Positions 52,979 through 62,287 of a DNA stretch of 64,000 nucleotides are shown piece after piece. Both the position numbers and the translations under genes were made by a program. Numbering within the stretch: the first letter of the stretch is position 1; each line of letters begins with the position of its first letter. The stretch spans positions 1 through 64,000 of the forward strand of contig NZ_JNAL01000017.1 of assembly GCF_000759955.1 (NCBI RefSeq). Reading direction: 5' to 3'. The notes under the pieces were generated by a model. That model made no database searches. It was not told where the DNA came from and saw only the letters and a list, made by a program, of their open reading frames with translations. The DNA comes from Prochlorococcus marinus str. MIT 9201. GTDB taxonomy: Bacteria > Cyanobacteriota > Cyanobacteriia > PCC-6307 > Cyanobiaceae.

Positions 52979-53073
52979 AATGAATGTCCTTTTTTTTGCA
53001 TACTAATATTATTTTCATTAATTGGCTGCTATGAAGATAAAATATAAAAAAGGTTTCGTAATAAAATTTGCAT

Positions 53074-55830
53074 ATGACTGAGATGAATGATCAATTATCT
53101 TTAAAGAATTATTCACCTTTTGAAGTAGAGAAAAAGTGGCAAGAAAAATGGGAAAGTTTACAGGCGTTTAGTCCTAATCCTGAGGATGACGGGGAGCCTT
53201 TTTGTGTTGTTATTCCGCCACCAAATGTAACTGGATCTTTGCATATGGGGCATGCATTTAACACCGCTTTGATAGATGTTGTAGTACGTTTTCAAAGACT
53301 TTTAGGTAAGAATGCTTTGTGTTTACCAGGAACTGATCATGCTTCAATAGCTGTTCAAACTATTCTTGAAAAACAATTAAAAAATGAAGGTAAAACAAGC
53401 GAGGATATTGGAAGAGATGAATTTCTTAAAAGAGCATGGAACTGGAAAGAACAAAGTGGTGGAAGAATAGTTTCTCAATTAAAAAGGATAGGATATTCAG
53501 TTGACTGGACTAGAGAAAGATTTACTCTTGATCAAAAATTAAACGAAGCAGTTATTGAGGCTTTTAATATTCTCTATAATAAGAATTTAATTTATAGAGG
53601 CGAATATTTGGTTAATTGGTGCCCTGAATCTCAATCTGCCGTAAGTGATCTTGAAGTTGAAATGCAAGAAGTAAATGGTCATTTATGGCATTTTAAATAC
53701 CCTTTAATTTCTGAAAGTGGTGAACAGTTAGATAAGTACTTAGAAGTTGCAACAACAAGACCAGAAACGCTTTTGGGTGATACTGCTGTGGCAGTTAATC
53801 CTGATGATGATAGATATAAAGAATTTATTGGTGTCAAAGTAAAAGTCCCTTTTGTTGATAGAGAAATACCTATTATCGCTGATTCACATGTTGATAAAGA
53901 TTTTGGTACGGGTTGTGTGAAGGTTACTCCAGCCCATGATCCAAATGATTTTGCAATAGGGAAAAGGCATAATTTAAAACAGATTAATGTAATGAACAAA
54001 GATGGAACTTTAAATATTAATGCAGGTATTTTTCAGAATTTAGATAGATATGAGGCTAGAAAGAAAATTATCAAAGAATTGGACAACTTAGGTCTATTGA
54101 CAAAGATAGAGGACTATAAACATACTGTTCCTTTTTCTGATAGAGGTAAGGTCCCAATTGAACCTTTATTGTCAACACAATGGTTTTTGAAAATGGATGA
54201 TATATCACAAGGATGTCTTAATGAAATTGATTCTAAAAAACCATCTTTTATTCCTCCACGCTGGGAGAAAGTTTATAAGGATTGGTTGGAGAATATCAAT
54301 GATTGGTGCATCAGTCGGCAATTGTGGTGGGGGCACCAAATACCAGCATGGTATGTTTTAGATGCCTCTCAAGACTCAATAGAACAAAATACTCCATATA
54401 TCGTTGCAAGAAATGAAGAAGATGCTTTAATCGAAGCTAATAAAAAATTTGGATTAAATATTAAATTGGTTCGCGATAAAGACGTTTTGGATACATGGTT
54501 TTCAAGTGGTTTATGGCCTTTCTCAACACTTGGTTGGCCAAATACAAATGATCCAGATTTTAAAAAATGGTATCCAAATAATGTTCTTGTTACTGGTTTC
54601 GATATTATTTTTTTCTGGGTGGCCAGAATGACAATGATGGGGAGTACTTTTACCAATAATATTCCTTTTAAGGATGTTTATATTCATGGTCTAGTTCGAG
54701 ATGAAAAAAATAAAAAAATGAGTAAAAGTGCAGGTAATGGTATTGATCCAATACTATTAATTGATAAATATGGTTCTGATGCTCTACGATTTGCTTTAAT
54801 TCGAGAAGTTGCAGGCGCTGGACAAGATATCCGGCTTGATTTTGATAGGAAAAAAGATACGTCTTCAACTGTTGAAGCTTCAAGAAATTTTGCGAATAAA
54901 TTATGGAATGCAACTAAATTTGTATTAATTAATAAAACTTCTAACAATAATTGTTCGCTTAATGAGAGTGATGAAACTTCTTTAGAATTATGTGATAGGT
55001 GGATTTTATCGAAATTGAATCAGGTAAATAAAAAAGTCGCTGCTTTGTTGAAAGAATATAAATTGGGAGAATCTGCCAAACTTCTATATGAATTTGCATG
55101 GAATGATTTTTGTGACTGGTATGTAGAATTTGCTAAACAAAGGTTTAATAATAAAGAGACTAAAAATAGACAAATATCTGAAAAAGTTTTAATAAAAGTA
55201 CTCAATGATATTTTGGTAATGATTCATCCTTTTATGCCGCATATTACTGAGGAACTTTGGCATGCACTGCAACTAAAACCAGATAATGCATTATTATCTC
55301 TTCAAAAATGGCCAATACACGAAAATAAATTTGTTGATCACAAGCTTGATAATTCCTTTCAGCAACTCTTTGAAATTATTAGACTGATTAGAAATTTGAG
55401 AGCTGAATTAGGTCTTAAGCCATCAGAAAAAGGTCCTGTATATTTAATTACAGATAATGATGAATTGATTGATTTTTTAAAAACTTTAGTTGAAGATATT
55501 CAAACCTTAACTAAATCTTCTGAAGTATTTATTTTTAAAACTAATGCTGTTGATAAAAAAGAGTTTGCTAAATCTTTTTCTGGTATAATTAGTGATTTAG
55601 AGGTTTACTTACCTTTTCAGGATTATGTAAATATAGATGCATTAAAGGAAAGGTTAACCAAGGATTTAAAAAAGGTAGCTATTGAATTAGAAAATTTAAA
55701 TAAGAGATTATCTAATAAAAATTTTGTTGATAAGGCTCCAAAAGATATTGTTGATGAATGCAGATTAAAATTAAATGAGGGTTCGGTTCAAAAGGAGAGA
55801 ATTACAAAAAAACTCGCACTATTGAATTGA
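53074..55830 (+). CDS. valS: Valyl-tRNA synthetase
   Basis: This class I synthetase charges tRNA-Val. The 918-residue protein has the HIGH-type motif PPPNVTGSLHMGHAFNTALID near residues 46-65 and a CP1 editing domain with ATTRPETLLGDTAVAVNP. The KMSKS motif is in RDEKNKKMSKSAGNGIDP near 550. A helical anticodon-binding domain and a C-terminal coiled-coil arm (LKERLTKDLKKVAIELENLNKRLSN region) complete it. I use ATG 53074; a TTG at 53068 would add two residues. The tRNA-Val gene lies upstream in the same direction. Confidence 0.97.
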   Translation: MTEMNDQLSLKNYSPFEVEKKWQEKWESLQAFSPNPEDDGEPFCVVIPPPNVTGSLHMGHAFNTALIDVVVRFQRLLGKNALCLPGTDHASIAVQTILEKQLKNEGKTSEDIGRDEFLKRAWNWKEQSGGRIVSQLKRIGYSVDWTRERFTLDQKLNEAVIEAFNILYNKNLIYRGEYLVNWCPESQSAVSDLEVEMQEVNGHLWHFKYPLISESGEQLDKYLEVATTRPETLLGDTAVAVNPDDDRYKEFIGVKVKVPFVDREIPIIADSHVDKDFGTGCVKVTPAHDPNDFAIGKRHNLKQINVMNKDGTLNINAGIFQNLDRYEARKKIIKELDNLGLLTKIEDYKHTVPFSDRGKVPIEPLLSTQWFLKMDDISQGCLNEIDSKKPSFIPPRWEKVYKDWLENINDWCISRQLWWGHQIPAWYVLDASQDSIEQNTPYIVARNEEDALIEANKKFGLNIKLVRDKDVLDTWFSSGLWPFSTLGWPNTNDPDFKKWYPNNVLVTGFDIIFFWVARMTMMGSTFTNNIPFKDVYIHGLVRDEKNKKMSKSAGNGIDPILLIDKYGSDALRFALIREVAGAGQDIRLDFDRKKDTSSTVEASRNFANKLWNATKFVLINKTSNNNCSLNESDETSLELCDRWILSKLNQVNKKVAALLKEYKLGESAKLLYEFAWNDFCDWYVEFAKQRFNNKETKNRQISEKVLIKVLNDILVMIHPFMPHITEELWHALQLKPDNALLSLQKWPIHENKFVDHKLDNSFQQLFEIIRLIRNLRAELGLKPSEKGPVYLITDNDELIDFLKTLVEDIQTLTKSSEVFIFKTNAVDKKEFAKSFSGIISDLEVYLPFQDYVNIDALKERLTKDLKKVAIELENLNKRLSNKNFVDKAPKDIVDECRLKLNEGSVQKERITKKLALLN

Positions 55831-55832
55831 GT

Positions 55833-56429
55833 ATGAATATATTCCTAGAAAATATTTATAATTTGTCTTTTTTTTTTAATACTGGAATTGGAATTTTAGC
55901 GTTTGTTTGTATTTATATTTTAATTGTTTTATTAATACTTCCAGCTTCTTGGTTATCTTTATTATCTGGTTTTTTATATGGCTCATATTTAGGATCAATT
56001 ATCGTTTTCATTTCCGCTTCCATTGGAGCAACAGTTGCATTTTTTTTATCAAAAACTTTTTTTGCAAAAAAGCTAAAAAACTTTTTTATCCGTTATCCAA
56101 AATTAACTGTTATGGAGAAAGTAGTAGAAAAAGGCGGACTTAAATTAATTTTTTTAGCGAGATTATCTCCGATATTTCCCTTCAGTATTCTAAATTATTT
56201 TTATGGTTTGAATAATATTAAATTTAGAGATTTTTCTCTTGGCCTTCTTGGAATTATTCCAGGAACTTTTCTTTATTGCTCAATAGGTAGTTTGGCAAAA
56301 ACTCTCCAGGATTTAAAAAATGTACAATCACCAAATAATTTGTATATGACTATCGTCGGAGTTGTTTCAACTTTTTTGGTTGTATATTTCTTAGCTAAAT
56401 ACTCCAGAGAATATTTTGAAAACTCCTAA
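55833..56429 (+). CDS. TVP38/TMEM64 (DedA-like) membrane protein
   Basis: This 198-residue polytopic protein has about five hydrophobic segments and the VTT/SNARE-associated domain core. It shows LILPASWLSLLSGFLYGSYLG near 35, ARLSPIFPFSILNYFYGL near 110-127, and GLLGIIPGTFLYCSIGS near 138. These proteins act in lipid or small-molecule transport across membranes; the substrate here is unknown. ATG is 55833, three bases after the valS stop; a TTG at 55827 overlapping that stop is an alternative. It is probably co-transcribed with valS. Confidence 0.85.
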   Translation: MNIFLENIYNLSFFFNTGIGILAFVCIYILIVLLILPASWLSLLSGFLYGSYLGSIIVFISASIGATVAFFLSKTFFAKKLKNFFIRYPKLTVMEKVVEKGGLKLIFLARLSPIFPFSILNYFYGLNNIKFRDFSLGLLGIIPGTFLYCSIGSLAKTLQDLKNVQSPNNLYMTIVGVVSTFLVVYFLAKYSREYFENS

Positions 56430-56433
56430 GAAT

Positions 56434-56586
56434 TTAATCTTTAATATTCCAATCTCTAATAGATGCAATTAAAATAAACCAAAATAGCCTAACTTTACCT
56501 AACAAAGTTTTATTAGCTTCTAATTCCATATATTTTGCCTGTCCACAAGGTGTTTTTATGTAGTTGAAAACTGTTTTCTTTGTCAT
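56434..56586 (-). CDS. 50-codon hypothetical small protein
   Basis: In the gap after the TVP38 gene an uninterrupted minus-strand frame runs from ATG 56586-56584 to TAA 56436-56434. Its product starts MTKKTVFNYIKTPCGQ, has a middle segment AKYMELEANKTLLGKVR, a short hydrophobic stretch LFWFILIAS and the tail IRDWNIKD. Mixed composition rather than AT-random residues, plus a possible membrane helix, favour a real small gene. No family is recognised. It lies 113 bases downstream of the ligase gene in the same direction. Confidence 0.5.
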   Translation of the reverse strand: MTKKTVFNYIKTPCGQAKYMELEANKTLLGKVRLFWFILIASIRDWNIKD

Positions 56587-56699
56587 AAGTCTTTTAAAAG
56601 TCTTAATAAATATTTTTATACTTTATAACTTATATTTTAAGTTTTTTATTTAAAAACCACATTTATTATTGACTACTTTGTTAAATAATTTTTTAAAAT

Positions 56700-58013
56700 T
56701 TACACTTTTTCTCCAGCTTTAAATCCTCTAAAGCATTTGAATCTTGGAAACCTAAGACTAAAAGCCACTGCATCCTTGGATTTAGTTTTAGCATCAGCTC
56801 TGATTTCTACAAGTTGACCAATGAGATGATTACGTTTTGACCAATATTCTTCACGTTGGATATCACTAAACCCGCTTCCACAACTAAGACTGTATTTATA
56901 CCCATCATCTTCCCCTTCTACCAGTATTGCCCCTAGCCTACCTTTATTACGACCTGTGCCTTCCTCAACCGATACAACTTTTAAAGTGACTTCAATGAAA
57001 GGTTTTGCTTTTAACCAACTGTGCGTTCTTTTACATTCATACATAGCATTGGGATCTTTAATCATTACTCCTTCATATCCTCCTTCAACGGCAGATTTAT
57101 TCAGCTCTACAAATCTTTTCTGACCTTCAATGGTGTCAAGATCTACATCTTCCCATTCCAGTGTTTGTACATGTTTTAGAAGCTTAGAATGTTTTGCTAC
57201 CCATTCTTTTATTAATAAACTTCTTGATGTTTGACTAGTGTTCCATCTCCCTTGTTGAAAGTTTTCAAGGGGACATAAATCAAATAAGTGTAGAACTGCA
57301 TCTTTTGTTTGTTTGCCATCTTTTCTATGAACCTGTTTCATTAAATCCTGAAAGTTAGCGCTCATTACTTCACCATCTAGGACTAAGTCATAAGGTACAG
57401 GATCTTCTTTTAAGACGTTTTCTATTTCCGAAATAATATGACCAAAATTATGGAATTGTTTCCCATTACGAGAAAACATTTCTACCTTATTTTGTCTAAT
57501 AATAGTTAAGACGCGTACACCATCTAATTTAATTTCAATTTGCTTTTTCCCTATCATTTTTTTTTCATGATTGGCACTGTCATGAGCTAAAGGACAAGAA
57601 AAAATAGGAATCGCATATTTGGGAAATTTCTTTGCTATCTTGTTGATTGTTTTTTCAGATACACCACATCTAAGATCTTTTATTAAAACTCGTCTATAAA
57701 ATCCATTCCACTCTTCTTTTGTTGCAGATTCCATAGCCGAAAAAATTGCATCTCGAGCAGCATGACCAGTAAGTTCTCTTTGAATAAGCTTATTGGCTAA
57801 TTCTTTAAAATCTTTCCATAAAAAATTTTGACTTTTTTCATTCTCTTTCTCAGGAACAATTTTTACACCAAAAGTTACCAATGGATCAAGTGCCATTCGG
57901 ATTCCTTCAAAAAAATCATCTAGACCTTCTTCCATCGCTTCTGAGATGATTTTTTCTTTTTCTAATCTACTTGGGTGTAATTCTAATTGTTGTATTATTT
58001 CTTCTTTAAACAA
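56700..58013 (-). CDS. Phage-type ATP-dependent DNA ligase
   Basis: This 437-residue protein carries all nucleotidyltransferase motifs of ATP-dependent DNA ligases: motif I KLDGVR with catalytic Lys162, SRNG at 181-184, the DGE of motif III at 213-215, EGVMIK of motif IV at 314-319, WLKAKP of motif V at 333-338, and an OB-fold with LRFPRFKCFR near 420. The N-terminal 140 residues (including RRVLIKDLRCGVSEKTINKI) resemble the T4-type DNA-binding domain. Bacterial replication uses NAD-dependent LigA, so this is an extra, probably phage-derived enzyme. It is not accompanied by the helicase and nuclease of bacterial ATP-ligase repair operons. The TTG start (58013) is supported by GAGGG at 58025-58021. 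Confidence 0.88.
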   Translation of the reverse strand: MFKEEIIQQLELHPSRLEKEKIISEAMEEGLDDFFEGIRMALDPLVTFGVKIVPEKENEKSQNFLWKDFKELANKLIQRELTGHAARDAIFSAMESATKEEWNGFYRRVLIKDLRCGVSEKTINKIAKKFPKYAIPIFSCPLAHDSANHEKKMIGKKQIEIKLDGVRVLTIIRQNKVEMFSRNGKQFHNFGHIISEIENVLKEDPVPYDLVLDGEVMSANFQDLMKQVHRKDGKQTKDAVLHLFDLCPLENFQQGRWNTSQTSRSLLIKEWVAKHSKLLKHVQTLEWEDVDLDTIEGQKRFVELNKSAVEGGYEGVMIKDPNAMYECKRTHSWLKAKPFIEVTLKVVSVEEGTGRNKGRLGAILVEGEDDGYKYSLSCGSGFSDIQREEYWSKRNHLIGQLVEIRADAKTKSKDAVAFSLRFPRFKCFRGFKAGEKV

Positions 58014-58036: not shown

Positions 58037-58456
58037 TTAATTCACCTTAGCTATTCTGTCTATTTTCCAATCATTGTCAGTTTTTGAGAAGGTAAAATCT
58101 AATGGGAGTTCATCTTGTTTGTCTTCTGATTTTAAATTCAAAGTTATTATGATTTGATCTTCTTGAACTCTAGGTCTTCCTGATTTTAGATTTCTGTATT
58201 TATTGAGGTTTAAACTAGCTAAAAATTTAAGAAAGTCTTGGCGTTTAACATGAGTTTTATAAGTTTTTGTAGTCAAACCATAAGCTGCATCAATTCTTCC
58301 AGCAGCTATTTGATCAAAAAACTTCCTTACTAATGGATTAATTCCTCTAGCGCTTATAACTAATTTGACGGCATTAAAAGTCCAAAAAGAAACTAGTACT
58401 GCTCCACCTACTAATAATGCTTTAATTCCGATATCTTTAACTAGTGTTGCATCCAT
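58037..58456 (-). CDS. Conserved-looking membrane-anchored protein, NTF2-like
   Basis: This 139-residue protein has one N-terminal hydrophobic helix (KALLVGGAVLVSFWTFNAVKLVI, 12-34). A soluble domain follows whose pattern of helix (LVRKFFDQIAAGRIDAAYGLTT) and strands ending in LPLDFTFSKTDNDWKIDRI resembles NTF2-like or DUF4864-type folds. That fold call is inference from the pattern; no catalytic residues are evident. ATG is 58456. It lies 23 bases upstream of the ligase gene in the same direction. Confidence 0.65.
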   Translation of the reverse strand: MDATLVKDIGIKALLVGGAVLVSFWTFNAVKLVISARGINPLVRKFFDQIAAGRIDAAYGLTTKTYKTHVKRQDFLKFLASLNLNKYRNLKSGRPRVQEDQIIITLNLKSEDKQDELPLDFTFSKTDNDWKIDRIAKVN

Positions 58457-58541: not shown

Positions 58542-59069
58542 ATGCCTTTAATTCCTCTTTTACCCTTATTTCATAGATTTAATAGCCAATATTTTGAAAA
58601 TTCTTTAACGGTTAATAATCAACCTTTAGTAAAAGTTAGATGGAGTGATAATAGATTAAAAACTACTGCTGGTTTTTACAAAAGAAAACGTATTAATGGT
58701 CTTGTAGATTCTGAAATTATTTTATCGAAACCTATCTTGAGTAAATTATCTACTAGTGAAATAAACAGTACTTTATGTCATGAAATGATTCATGCATGGG
58801 TAGATAGGATATTAAAAAAAAATGAGATTCATGGCCCAAATTTTTTAGCAAAGATGAATGAAATTAATGAGAAAGAGAAGAGCTTTATAATATCTGTAAG
58901 ACACTCATTTCCTATTGAAAGGAGAGAATTAAAATATATAGGAACTTGTCAAAATTGTGGTGATAAATTTTTTTATAGGAAAAGGATAAAGAATATTGCC
59001 TGTAAAAAATGTTGTGTAAATTTATTTAATGGATCATGGAATAAAAACTGTTTAATTTTGTTTGATTAA
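58542..59069 (+). CDS. SprT-like zinc metalloprotein
   Basis: This 175-residue protein of the SprT/Spartan-like family has the zinc-peptidase motif HEMIH at residues 80-84 (in LCHEMIHAWVDRI). His97 in EIHGPNFLAKM is the probable third ligand. A C-terminal zinc ribbon follows with Cys136, Cys139, Cys154 and Cys157. Eukaryotic Spartan cleaves DNA-protein crosslinks; bacterial SprT members are poorly characterised, so substrate and role are open. It diverges from the preceding gene. Confidence 0.83.
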   Translation: MPLIPLLPLFHRFNSQYFENSLTVNNQPLVKVRWSDNRLKTTAGFYKRKRINGLVDSEIILSKPILSKLSTSEINSTLCHEMIHAWVDRILKKNEIHGPNFLAKMNEINEKEKSFIISVRHSFPIERRELKYIGTCQNCGDKFFYRKRIKNIACKKCCVNLFNGSWNKNCLILFD

Positions 59070-60319: not shown

Positions 60320-62287
60320 TTAAGATGATAACTTTTTTTCAGCAAAAACATTTGCATTTTCATTCTTTATTTCTTTTATTTTTAGCCAAACAAGTAATGC
60401 AGTTAAATCAGCTTTGCTTACTCCAGGAATTTTTGAAGCATCACCAAAATTTTTTGGCTTTATCTTATTCAAATTTTCTCTAGCTTCTAAAGATAATGTA
60501 TCTATCTTTTCGTAATTTATTTCTTGAGGCAGAGATTTACAGCTTTGACGATTTATTTGTTCAATGTTGTTTTTTTGTCTTTTAAGATAACCCTCGTATT
60601 TAATATCTATTTCAACACCTTCCTGTATTGAAGAATCAAGATTTTTTTTAGTCAAATTATATTTAATTAGATCTGAATAATGAAAGTTTGGTCTTTTTAG
60701 GAGTTCTTTCAAAGTCGTTGAACCTTTGATTTTTGATCCCGTGTCTAATTCTATTTTTTTTGACGTTTCATCGGTATTTTTTAAACGCGTGTTATTTAAT
60801 CTTAATTTCTCTTCCTCAAGGAGTTTCATCTTTTCTTGATAGGCCGACCATCTTTTCTCATCAATAAGCCCTATTTGATAGCCTAATGGGGTTAATCTCC
60901 TATCTGCATTATCACCTCTAAGAGTTAACCTATATTCACTCCTACTAGTAAGAACTCTGTATGGTTCTTTGAGATCTTTGGTAATTAAATCATTAATCAT
61001 GGTTCCTATATAACTGCTTTCTCTAGTGAAAATTATTGGATCTTTTTTGTTTAGTTTTCTTGTCGCATTGACTCCCGCAACTAATCCTTGTGCTGCTGCT
61101 TCTTCATAACCAGTAGTGCCATTAATTTGTCCAGCGCTAAATAAATATTCAATTTCTTTCGTTTCAAGTGATGTTTGGAGCTGTGTTGCTGGTATATAGT
61201 CATACTCGACAGCATATGCTGGTCGCAACATTTTACATTTACTTAATCCAGGTAAGGTTCTTAAAAGTTCTAATTGAATATTCTCTGGTAAACCTGTAGA
61301 AAATCCTTGTACATATATTTCAGGGGTATTAATTCCTTCTGGCTCTAAGAAAATTTGATGTGATTCTTTATCAGCAAATTTAACTATTTTATCTTCAATT
61401 GATGGACAATATCTTGGCCCTTTACTATCAATAAAACCGCCGTAAATGGGAGTTAAATGTAAATTGTCTCGAATGAGTTGATGTGTTTTAGAAGTTGTTC
61501 TTGTGATATGACAACTAACTTGAGGCATATTATTTTTGATATCTGGGTCAAAAGAAAAATATTTATCAGCTGCCGTACTGGGTTGAATATCTAATTCATC
61601 AAAAATGATACTCTTTTTATCAACTCTTGCTGGAGTTCCAGTTTTTAAACGTTCTGTTTTAATACCAATTTCGTGTAAGTTTTGAGTAAGACCTTGTGCT
61701 GCTTGTTCGCCCGATCTACCTGCTGACATTGATTTATTTCCTATCCATATTCTTCCTTCTAAAAAAGTACCAGCTGTGATAATAACTGATTTAGCTGAAT
61801 AATAACTACCAAAGAATGTTTTTACACCTTTTATTCTTTTTTTTACGATTTTTTTGGAGTTCAATCCAATTTCTTCAGTTTTTGTAATATCCAGTTCAGT
61901 AATCATTGCTTCTTTTAAAGATAAATTATCTGTGTTTTGAAGGATTTCGATCATCTTTTTTGAGTATTCTCTTTTGTCTGTTTGAGCTCTTAATGCCCAT
62001 ACAGCTGGTCCTCTACTTGCATTTAATATTCTTTTTTGAATAGCTGTTTTATCAGCTAATTTCCCAATTATTCCTCCTAATGCATCAACTTCATGCACTA
62101 ACTGACTTTTTGCTGGCCCGCCAACTGCAGGGTTACAAGGTTGCCAGGCAATCCTATCTAAATTGATTGTGAATAAGGCTGTAGAAAATCCTAATTTTGC
62201 TGTTGTTATAGCTGCTTCGCATCCTGCATGTCCTCCTCCAATAACGATGATGTCAAAAGATTCATTTGTTGCTTGATGATCTTGCAT
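60320..62287 (-). CDS. mnmG: tRNA uridine 5-carboxymethylaminomethyl modification enzyme MnmG
   Basis: With MnmE, MnmG (GidA) installs the cmnm5 group on U34 of tRNAs reading codons ending in A or G, using FAD, NADH and methylene-THF. The 655-residue protein begins with FAD motif [21 protein letters not shown] (14-34, shown in part). It has [23 protein letters not shown] split near 52-74 and [13 protein letters not shown]-like [18 protein letters not shown] near 398. The C-terminal helical domain ends in [20 protein letters not shown]. Length is slightly above E. coli's 629. It follows dnaB by 12 bases. Confidence 0.97.

Follow-up and report, generated by a model that had tools for sequence, protein, structure and literature searches.

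The ATP-dependent DNA ligase encoded in the window (the whole 64,000-nucleotide stretch of Prochlorococcus DNA analysed here) very probably marks a displacement, in which a virus-type enzyme ousted the NAD+-dependent ligase LigA from its chromosomal slot and took over replicative and repair sealing in the clade that bears this type of ligase (Pmar-Lig). We take the carriers to be the high-light Prochlorococcus clade, going by strain identities and the ecotype of MIT 9107. Prochlorococcus is a very abundant ocean phototroph, and a large branch of it appears to live without LigA. The first-pass annotation of this DNA had presented the gene as an extra ligase beside LigA; instead, no full-length ligA was found in the genome, the ligase occupies the slot of LigA, and the genomic distributions set out below indicate that LigA is gone from the Pmar-Lig-bearing clade and that the ligase is not an extra one.

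The gene is read from a TTG within a 448-codon open frame. The GTG that is usable as a start in most relatives lies one base out of frame in the window and in the related sequence L007 (58013-58036), which leaves the in-frame TTG at 58013 as the probable initiation codon. The product matches the Pfam models DNA_ligase_A_M (5.9e-21) and DNA_ligase_OB_2 (7.5e-11), the PHROGs family phrog_114 (ATP-dependent DNA ligase, 5.8e-89) and, over residues 1-437, the PDB entries 6rau, 6ras and 6rar (E down to 7.6e-283), with 408 of the 437 residues (93.4%) identical to those of the crystallised Pmar-Lig (6rau). Judged by this full-length match, the window ligase is a member of the Pmar-Lig type, and it is apparently also the ‘Lig W’ of a 2025 review (PMC12133292). 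The claim of a complete active site holds: KLDGVR at 162, which provides Lys162, is joined by the other nucleotidyltransferase motifs, viz., RNGK at 182, DGEVM at 213, LFDL at 243, EGVMIK at 314, KAKPF at 335 and LRFPRF at 420. The T4-like N-terminal DNA-binding domain that had been proposed alongside it is likewise upheld, because the crystallised close homologue has one (PMC6698739), the corresponding Pfam model PF04675 itself scoring 0.058 on the window ligase, which is below its cut-off. ATP-dependent nick sealing is published for the same homologue (PMC6698739) and is predicted here by analogy.

Other ligase types do not fit this protein. NAD-ligase families are absent among its Pfam and NCBIfam matches; a match to NF041331 (‘LigA_Halo’) is far below cut-off, and that model is itself one of ATP ligases. 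The repair operon of LigB joins a ligase to a metallo-beta-lactamase exonuclease and a helicase, features that are not encountered here, PF04675 and PF04679 not being over cut-off in the window ligase and, as the first-pass annotation had observed, no nuclease or helicase lying among the neighbours of the gene in the locus comparison. LigE is about 250-300 aa in size, and the window ligase, with 437 aa and about 150 residues ahead of the adenylation domain, does not match this type. LigE is also without an N-terminal DNA-binding domain (PMC6698739). The ligase is under purifying selection, with a dN/dS of 0.08-0.11 against two relatives, beside 0.08-0.13 for ValS and 0.09 for MnmG. A candidate clamp-binding motif near the N-terminus (QLEL) was dropped, its Q not being kept in the MED4-like rows.

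The position of the gene is central to our reading. Over 17 loci, the gene order is DnaB, MnmG, chorismate lyase, h187, SprT, NTF2-like, ligase, orf50, TVP38 and ValS (Table 1), with extra genes between members of the row in G004, G013 and G020, and with some stretches ending before the outer genes. The ligase slot is filled in all 17, by LigA in 11 (the genus genomes G197, G307, G313 and G323, and, beyond them, G002, G003, G004, G008, G013, G020 and G038) and by Pmar-Lig in six (G007, G016, G066, G104, G130 and G161), as it also is in the window. The LigA proteins at the locus have 685-706 aa, and all six that were checked possess the four-cysteine zinc motif. In a broader set of 110 Pmar-Lig loci (13 occur twice, which leaves 97 distinct ones, the window's own included), the ligase is flanked by the NTF2-like gene and orf50 in every case, without a LigA match. 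These comparisons present the LigA-to-Pmar-Lig exchange as a swap in situ, in the same chromosomal slot.

A homologue of orf50, the 50-codon ORF that had already been singled out in the first-pass annotation and that proves to be a conserved gene, follows the ligase on its 3' side in all 17 loci, whichever ligase is present (in G020 a 375-aa ORF intervenes between ligA and orf50); it has no match in Pfam, NCBIfam or PHROG. The NTF2-like gene is the 5' neighbour in 15 of the 17, none having been detected in G004 and G013. Among the loci, no SprT-like gene was detected in G307, and the G104 contig ends before it. The suggestion that the ligase forms a small repair module with the SprT-like and NTF2-like proteins does not survive, for both genes are found beside ligA in genera that have no Pmar-Lig and were therefore not brought in with the ligase. 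A prophage or mobile element around the ligase is rejected, the neighbours being conserved chromosomal genes that other genera of the order have around ligA. While ligA and orf50 overlap by 4 nt in G197, G307 and G313, Pmar-Lig and orf50 are separated in the window by an AT-rich spacer, in which tblastn with two LigA proteins gave no convincing ligA remnant (best E 0.12, i.e., chance level). As a separate observation, the NTF2-like membrane protein has a dN/dS of 0.01-0.03 in two comparisons, below both ValS and the ligase.

Table 1. Genes and other features of the ligase locus in the window, followed by the further ligase-like genes of the same genome (positions on their own sequence stretches)
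Feature	Position	Strand	Remarks
valS	53068..55830	(+)	conserved flank; marker for genome tree
TVP38/VTT-domain membrane protein	55827..56429	(+)	PF09335 1.3e-23; 17/17 loci
orf50, conserved 49-63 aa protein	56434..56586	(-)	3' neighbour of ligase slot
AT-rich spacer between Pmar-Lig and orf50	56587..56699	.	113 nt; searched with tblastn
Pmar-Lig type ATP-dependent DNA ligase	56700..58013	(-)	437 aa; N-terminal DNA-binding, adenylation (Lys162) and OB domains
NTF2-like membrane protein gene	58037..58456	(-)	5' neighbour of ligase slot; weak family matches only
SprT-like gene	58542..59069	(+)	PF10263 5.9e-25; 15/17 loci
mnmG	60320..62287	(-)	conserved outer flank; absent from the stretches taken from G004, G020 and G104
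LigB-type ATP ligase	L001:1114-2751	(-)	contig C12; 545 aa; PF04675 and PF04679 over cut-off
LigA-like protein, 249 aa	L003:1495-2244	(-)	contig C12; Ia and adenylation parts of LigA only
LigA-like protein, 249 aa	L004:1441-2190	(-)	contig C7; Ia and adenylation parts of LigA only

The two ligases exclude each other across genomes. In an order-wide sample of 250 genomes (84 of the window's genus and 166 outside it), the whole-LigA model TIGR00575 is over its curated cut-off in 167, i.e., in all 166 outside the genus and in a single one of the 84 inside (G197). Strong Pmar-Lig matches show the reverse distribution, with 80 of the 84 genus genomes and none of the 166 others, which cover 33 further genera; weak matches, one within the genus (G219) and six in another genus, were not scored. 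The 84 thus divide into 80 with Pmar-Lig only, one with LigA only, three with neither and none with both. The three with neither (G213, G219 and G223) also miss valS, the best matches to a valS query being of 25-26% identity in ORFs of 978-984 aa, and it is therefore the whole locus that is missing there and not the ligase alone. Among 200 genomes of the genus, many of them incomplete assemblies (down to about 50%), 157 have Pmar-Lig, six the LigA OB domain (PF03120), 37 neither and none both, with eight weak matches (E 7e-8 to 1e-3) not scored as Pmar-Lig; the locus gap was examined in the above three genomes, as against these 37 with neither. The LigA OB domain was found in none of the 66 high-quality genus genomes. 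The LigA-bearing members of the genus are G197, G304, G307, G313, G319, G323 and G329. The first-pass annotation had held that presence at the same locus in all Prochlorococcus and Synechococcus would speak against a lateral origin of the ligase; what we find is that the relatives have LigA there.

These ligA-retaining relatives with the same slot allow the swap to be placed on a tree. In a ValS tree of 27 genomes, whose chosen outgroup of four did not fall on one side of a branch, the seven Pmar-Lig carriers form one clade (100/99), seven LigA-bearing members of the genus stand beside it (94/91), and both lie inside LigA genera, a topology for which a single replacement, on the branch leading to the Pmar-Lig clade, suffices.

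As for the source of the enzyme, the nearest relatives that sequence searches recovered are viral. IMG/VR holds 428 viral stretches with a relative of the ligase, the best 80 being 68-77% identical to it (78 of these 80 over residues 4-437), and a profile scan of viral contigs gave at least 594 related stretches; we presume these contigs to be of marine origin from their IMG sample numbers. The ligase of L226, the only viral one scanned, has the same Pfam domains, and, of the gene families next to the viral ligases, two are recurrent, in 59 and 57 of these 80 loci. The T4-type capsid protein Gp23 is encoded in two of 12 long viral records searched, which are the longest two; among the 12 matches listed, the nearest isolates (67-72%) are jumbo phages that infect Sinorhizobium, Vibrio and Pseudomonas. 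The designation of the protein as a phage-type ATP ligase is hence apt, given the phrog_114 match and these viral relatives, and its lateral acquisition and fixation in a streamlined genome, as the first-pass annotation had surmised, is probable in view of the same relatives and of the 33 other genera without a strong match. Ligases of isolated phages are distant (28-37% identity, at most 36.6% among the best 60 matches listed). An isolated cyanophage was considered as the donor and set aside, none having been found among those 60 matches; cyanomyoviruses are also reported, in the accessible part of the source, to be without g30 (PMC2984593).

In maximum-likelihood trees, from which 79 of 160 viral ligases (at least 90% identical to a retained sequence) as well as 27 of 38 host rows were left out, the host sequences form a single group (100 in the first tree; 100/100 in the second) that pairs with vir_L226 (96 and 99/92, respectively), the nearest viral sequence, which lies on a 4.1-kb contig. 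With a distant isolated-phage outgroup, the host group of the first tree nests inside the virus rows, a rooting made unsure by the very long outgroup branches (3.5-10); in the second tree, unrooted and without vir_L378 and five outgroup rows, host and virus each occupy one side of a branch. The ligases L226:2403-3725 and L227:3960-5288 are near-identical C-terminally and differ near residues 55-105, a mosaic that suggests recombination among viral ligases.

Two versions of the converse history, namely that viruses took the gene from Prochlorococcus or that both drew on a shared third source, are compatible with the unrooted tree and with an outgroup too distant to root firmly, and the bacterial carriers are known from 80, the best-matching, of the 192 genome stretches that contain a relative (77 titled Prochlorococcus and three ‘uncultured Synechococcaceae’, without a cellular donor outside Prochlorococcus among these 80). 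Nevertheless, we consider such a history unlikely: the host gene is restricted, within the order, to a single clade of one genus, the relatives of which have LigA, whereas its relatives populate 428 viral stretches, the two longest records with a T4-type capsid gene, and the host sequences fall inside the virus rows when the distant outgroup is included. Because of this confinement of the host gene, we infer that the transfer ran from virus to host.

The genomes that carry Pmar-Lig possess other ligase-like genes, and these provide the remaining competitors for the replicative role. The LigB-type ATP ligase (545-559 aa in the genus) is present in nine of the ten Pmar-Lig genomes examined and frequent in the 200-genome sample, as would be expected were it the replicative enzyme and Pmar-Lig an accessory. 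This assignment is, however, very unlikely, as Pmar-Lig is the sole PF01068 match in seven of the 32 genus genomes of that sample at 99-100% completeness (G001, G036, G067, G080, G088, G130 and G157, all without full LigA, with G130 a single contig). Moreover, the LigB type coexists with LigA in G313 and G013, and it is therefore not what replaced LigA; in the one pair compared (the window genome and G007), it also diverges faster, with 88% identity and a dN/dS of 0.12 as against 94.5% and 0.08 for Pmar-Lig. The LigB-type gene is preceded by a 147-aa ORF with a sub-threshold RMMBL match, possibly the nuclease remnant of the known repair operon. Weak PF01068 matches in ORFs of 253-256 aa also occur in LigA-bearing genomes (G313:C3:33407-33871 and G329:C32:2781-3149).

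The second competitor is a set of short LigA-like proteins. The first-pass annotation had raised the matter of a ligA elsewhere in the genome; a search of the window's own genome with the NAD-ligase adenylation domain gave only two 249-aa ORFs, which are 50% identical to each other and end after motif V, match PF01653 (9.4e-22 and 2.1e-18) and keep the motifs KIDG, RGE and DGIVVK or NGIVIK. When whole LigA was compared with 12 Pmar-Lig genomes (nine of them single-contig), matches were confined to its residues 115-341 and lay in open frames 249-263 aa long, with two of them running through stops; such short matches occur in all 12. Their phage matches, among those listed, are of 26-30% identity and include NAD-dependent DNA ligase A subunits, and it is possible from these features that they are NAD+-using adenylyltransferases, comparable to the A subunit in the split NAD ligases of phages. 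It is a further step to suppose that, together with an unrecognised OB-domain partner, they make up the replicative ligase in the manner of the split NAD ligases of T5-like phages. Their retained adenylation motifs and phage counterparts would accord with this, and the MED4 ‘ligA’ transcript that peaks in S phase (PMC2663038) may stem from a short gene of this kind. Yet we regard it as highly improbable, given that the LigA OB domain occurs in 0 of 66 high-quality genus genomes, that the short proteins are poorly conserved (identity to copy A of the window genome of 87% in G007, 86% in G130, 69% in G016, 63% in G122 and 59% in G066), and that extra TIGR00575 matches, maybe to the same short proteins, are also seen in genomes with full LigA. 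MED4 PMM1679, which its location marks as a probable Pmar-Lig, bears the annotation ligB; since the ‘ligA’ of the S-phase study may thus be the short gene, we do not count that transcript as support.

Finally, the notion that LigA is present but was missed through an assembly gap, masking or search failure is scarcely tenable, for although the locus is missing from the assembly in the three genus genomes without both ligases, nine genomes without full LigA are single-contig, all 110 loci checked (97 of them distinct) have the slot assembled and occupied by Pmar-Lig, and the same profile, applied to 386 cyanobacterial genomes, detects LigA over cut-off in 367. Sixteen of the 19 misses in that survey belong to the window's genus and the other three are fragmented assemblies, viz., G640 (99% complete, 170 contigs), G430 (87%, 750) and G424 (86%, 530). 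The 7.4-Mb G640 genome has a best LigA match of 8.5e-4, which could reflect an assembly gap or another loss.

We return to the displacement of LigA by the virus-type ligase. We infer that Pmar-Lig is the replicative ligase of the clade because it occupies the place of ligA, shows a dN/dS close to the ValS and MnmG values, and is the sole PF01068 match in seven of 32 near-complete genomes. LigA is the essential ligase that joins Okazaki fragments in bacteria (PMC12133292), and the crystallised homologue combines a nick sealing capacity similar to that of T4 ligase with no blunt-end joining, a profile that suits Okazaki-type nicks (PMC6698739). In the scenario we propose, the ancestor of the Pmar-Lig clade would have exchanged its ligA ORF, flanked by the NTF2-like gene and orf50, for a ligase gene such as uncultured T4-related viruses carry today, and the viral-type enzyme would have assumed the sealing of nicks during replication and repair. 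ATP would adenylate Lys162 and the AMP would then pass to the 5' phosphate of the nick, from which it would be displaced by the 3' OH, with the duplex clamped throughout by the DNA-binding, adenylation and OB domains; with LigA lost, ligation in the clade would use ATP rather than NAD+. The LigB-type ligase or the short LigA-like ORFs could also contribute to ligation.

It is likely, then, that the high-light clade no longer has a functional LigA and copies its genome with an ATP ligase of viral origin in the LigA slot, in which event ligase-less cyanomyoviruses would rely on the host enzyme and the swap could relieve zinc and NAD+ costs in metal-poor surface water. The swap shrinks the protein from about 690 to 437 residues and its nitrogen atoms from 951-980 (in the two LigA proteins computed) to 619, and it removes the four-cysteine zinc motif; that the smaller nitrogen and zinc demand helps in nitrogen- and zinc-poor surface water is speculation on our part. 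More broadly, the clade and its relatives offer a natural experiment on whether core replication parts can give way to viral counterparts, on NAD+ against ATP as the cofactor, and on the indispensability of LigA.

Several published observations touch on these genes. In the open papers searched, taken without their supplements, we found no statement of a replacement of LigA in Prochlorococcus. An NAD-ligase viral protein family is listed among those unique to LL strains, without a reading as replacement in the accessible portion of that article (PMC11357015), and the gene clusters enriched in samples from the Red Sea and Hawaii include an NAD-dependent DNA ligase (PMC3686209); the latter may oppose the loss of LigA or may be a short LigA-like gene. 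Several DNA ligases are mentioned for MED4 (PMC2921402), and some HL-II genomes are described as being without a DNA ligase cluster (PMC5804319), which is possibly the LigB type. An ATP-dependent ligase is listed as lost early in Prochlorococcus (PMC3940434), while the Paulinella chromatophore imports LigA, which fills a gap in the chromatophore-encoded set (PMC7826189). The available text of the 2025 Biochem J review enters ‘Lig W (Prochlorococcus marinus)’ without a mark for its role (PMC12133292).

Among characterised systems, the closest is Pmar-Lig itself (PDB 6RAR, 6RAS, 6RAU and 6RCE; NAR 2019, PMC6698739), which is of the same family as the window ligase, with no sequence difference of note. 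The difference lies in the context: that paper, in the part available to us, places the ATP ligase beside a replicative LigA (PMC6698739), whereas the genomes examined here point to its standing in place of LigA, which suggests a revision of the published accessory role. The uncultured viral ligases (IMG/VR L226-L305 and L315-L394; 68-77% for the best 80) come next, and differ in being carried by viruses. The ligases of SPO1-like Bacillus phages and T4-type gp30 (Vibrio phage nt-1) are similar in length and layout but distant (28-37%). LigA shares the slot and presumably the job of the window ligase, but it is a larger enzyme of another family that uses NAD+ and not ATP. The nearest precedent for the exchange as such is the displacement of NAD-dependent by ATP-dependent ligases in large eukaryotic DNA viruses (Biol Direct 2009, PMC2806865), which is likewise non-orthologous. 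That case took place in viruses (PMC2806865), whereas the one described here would have unfolded on the chromosome of a free-living bacterium and in the very same slot.
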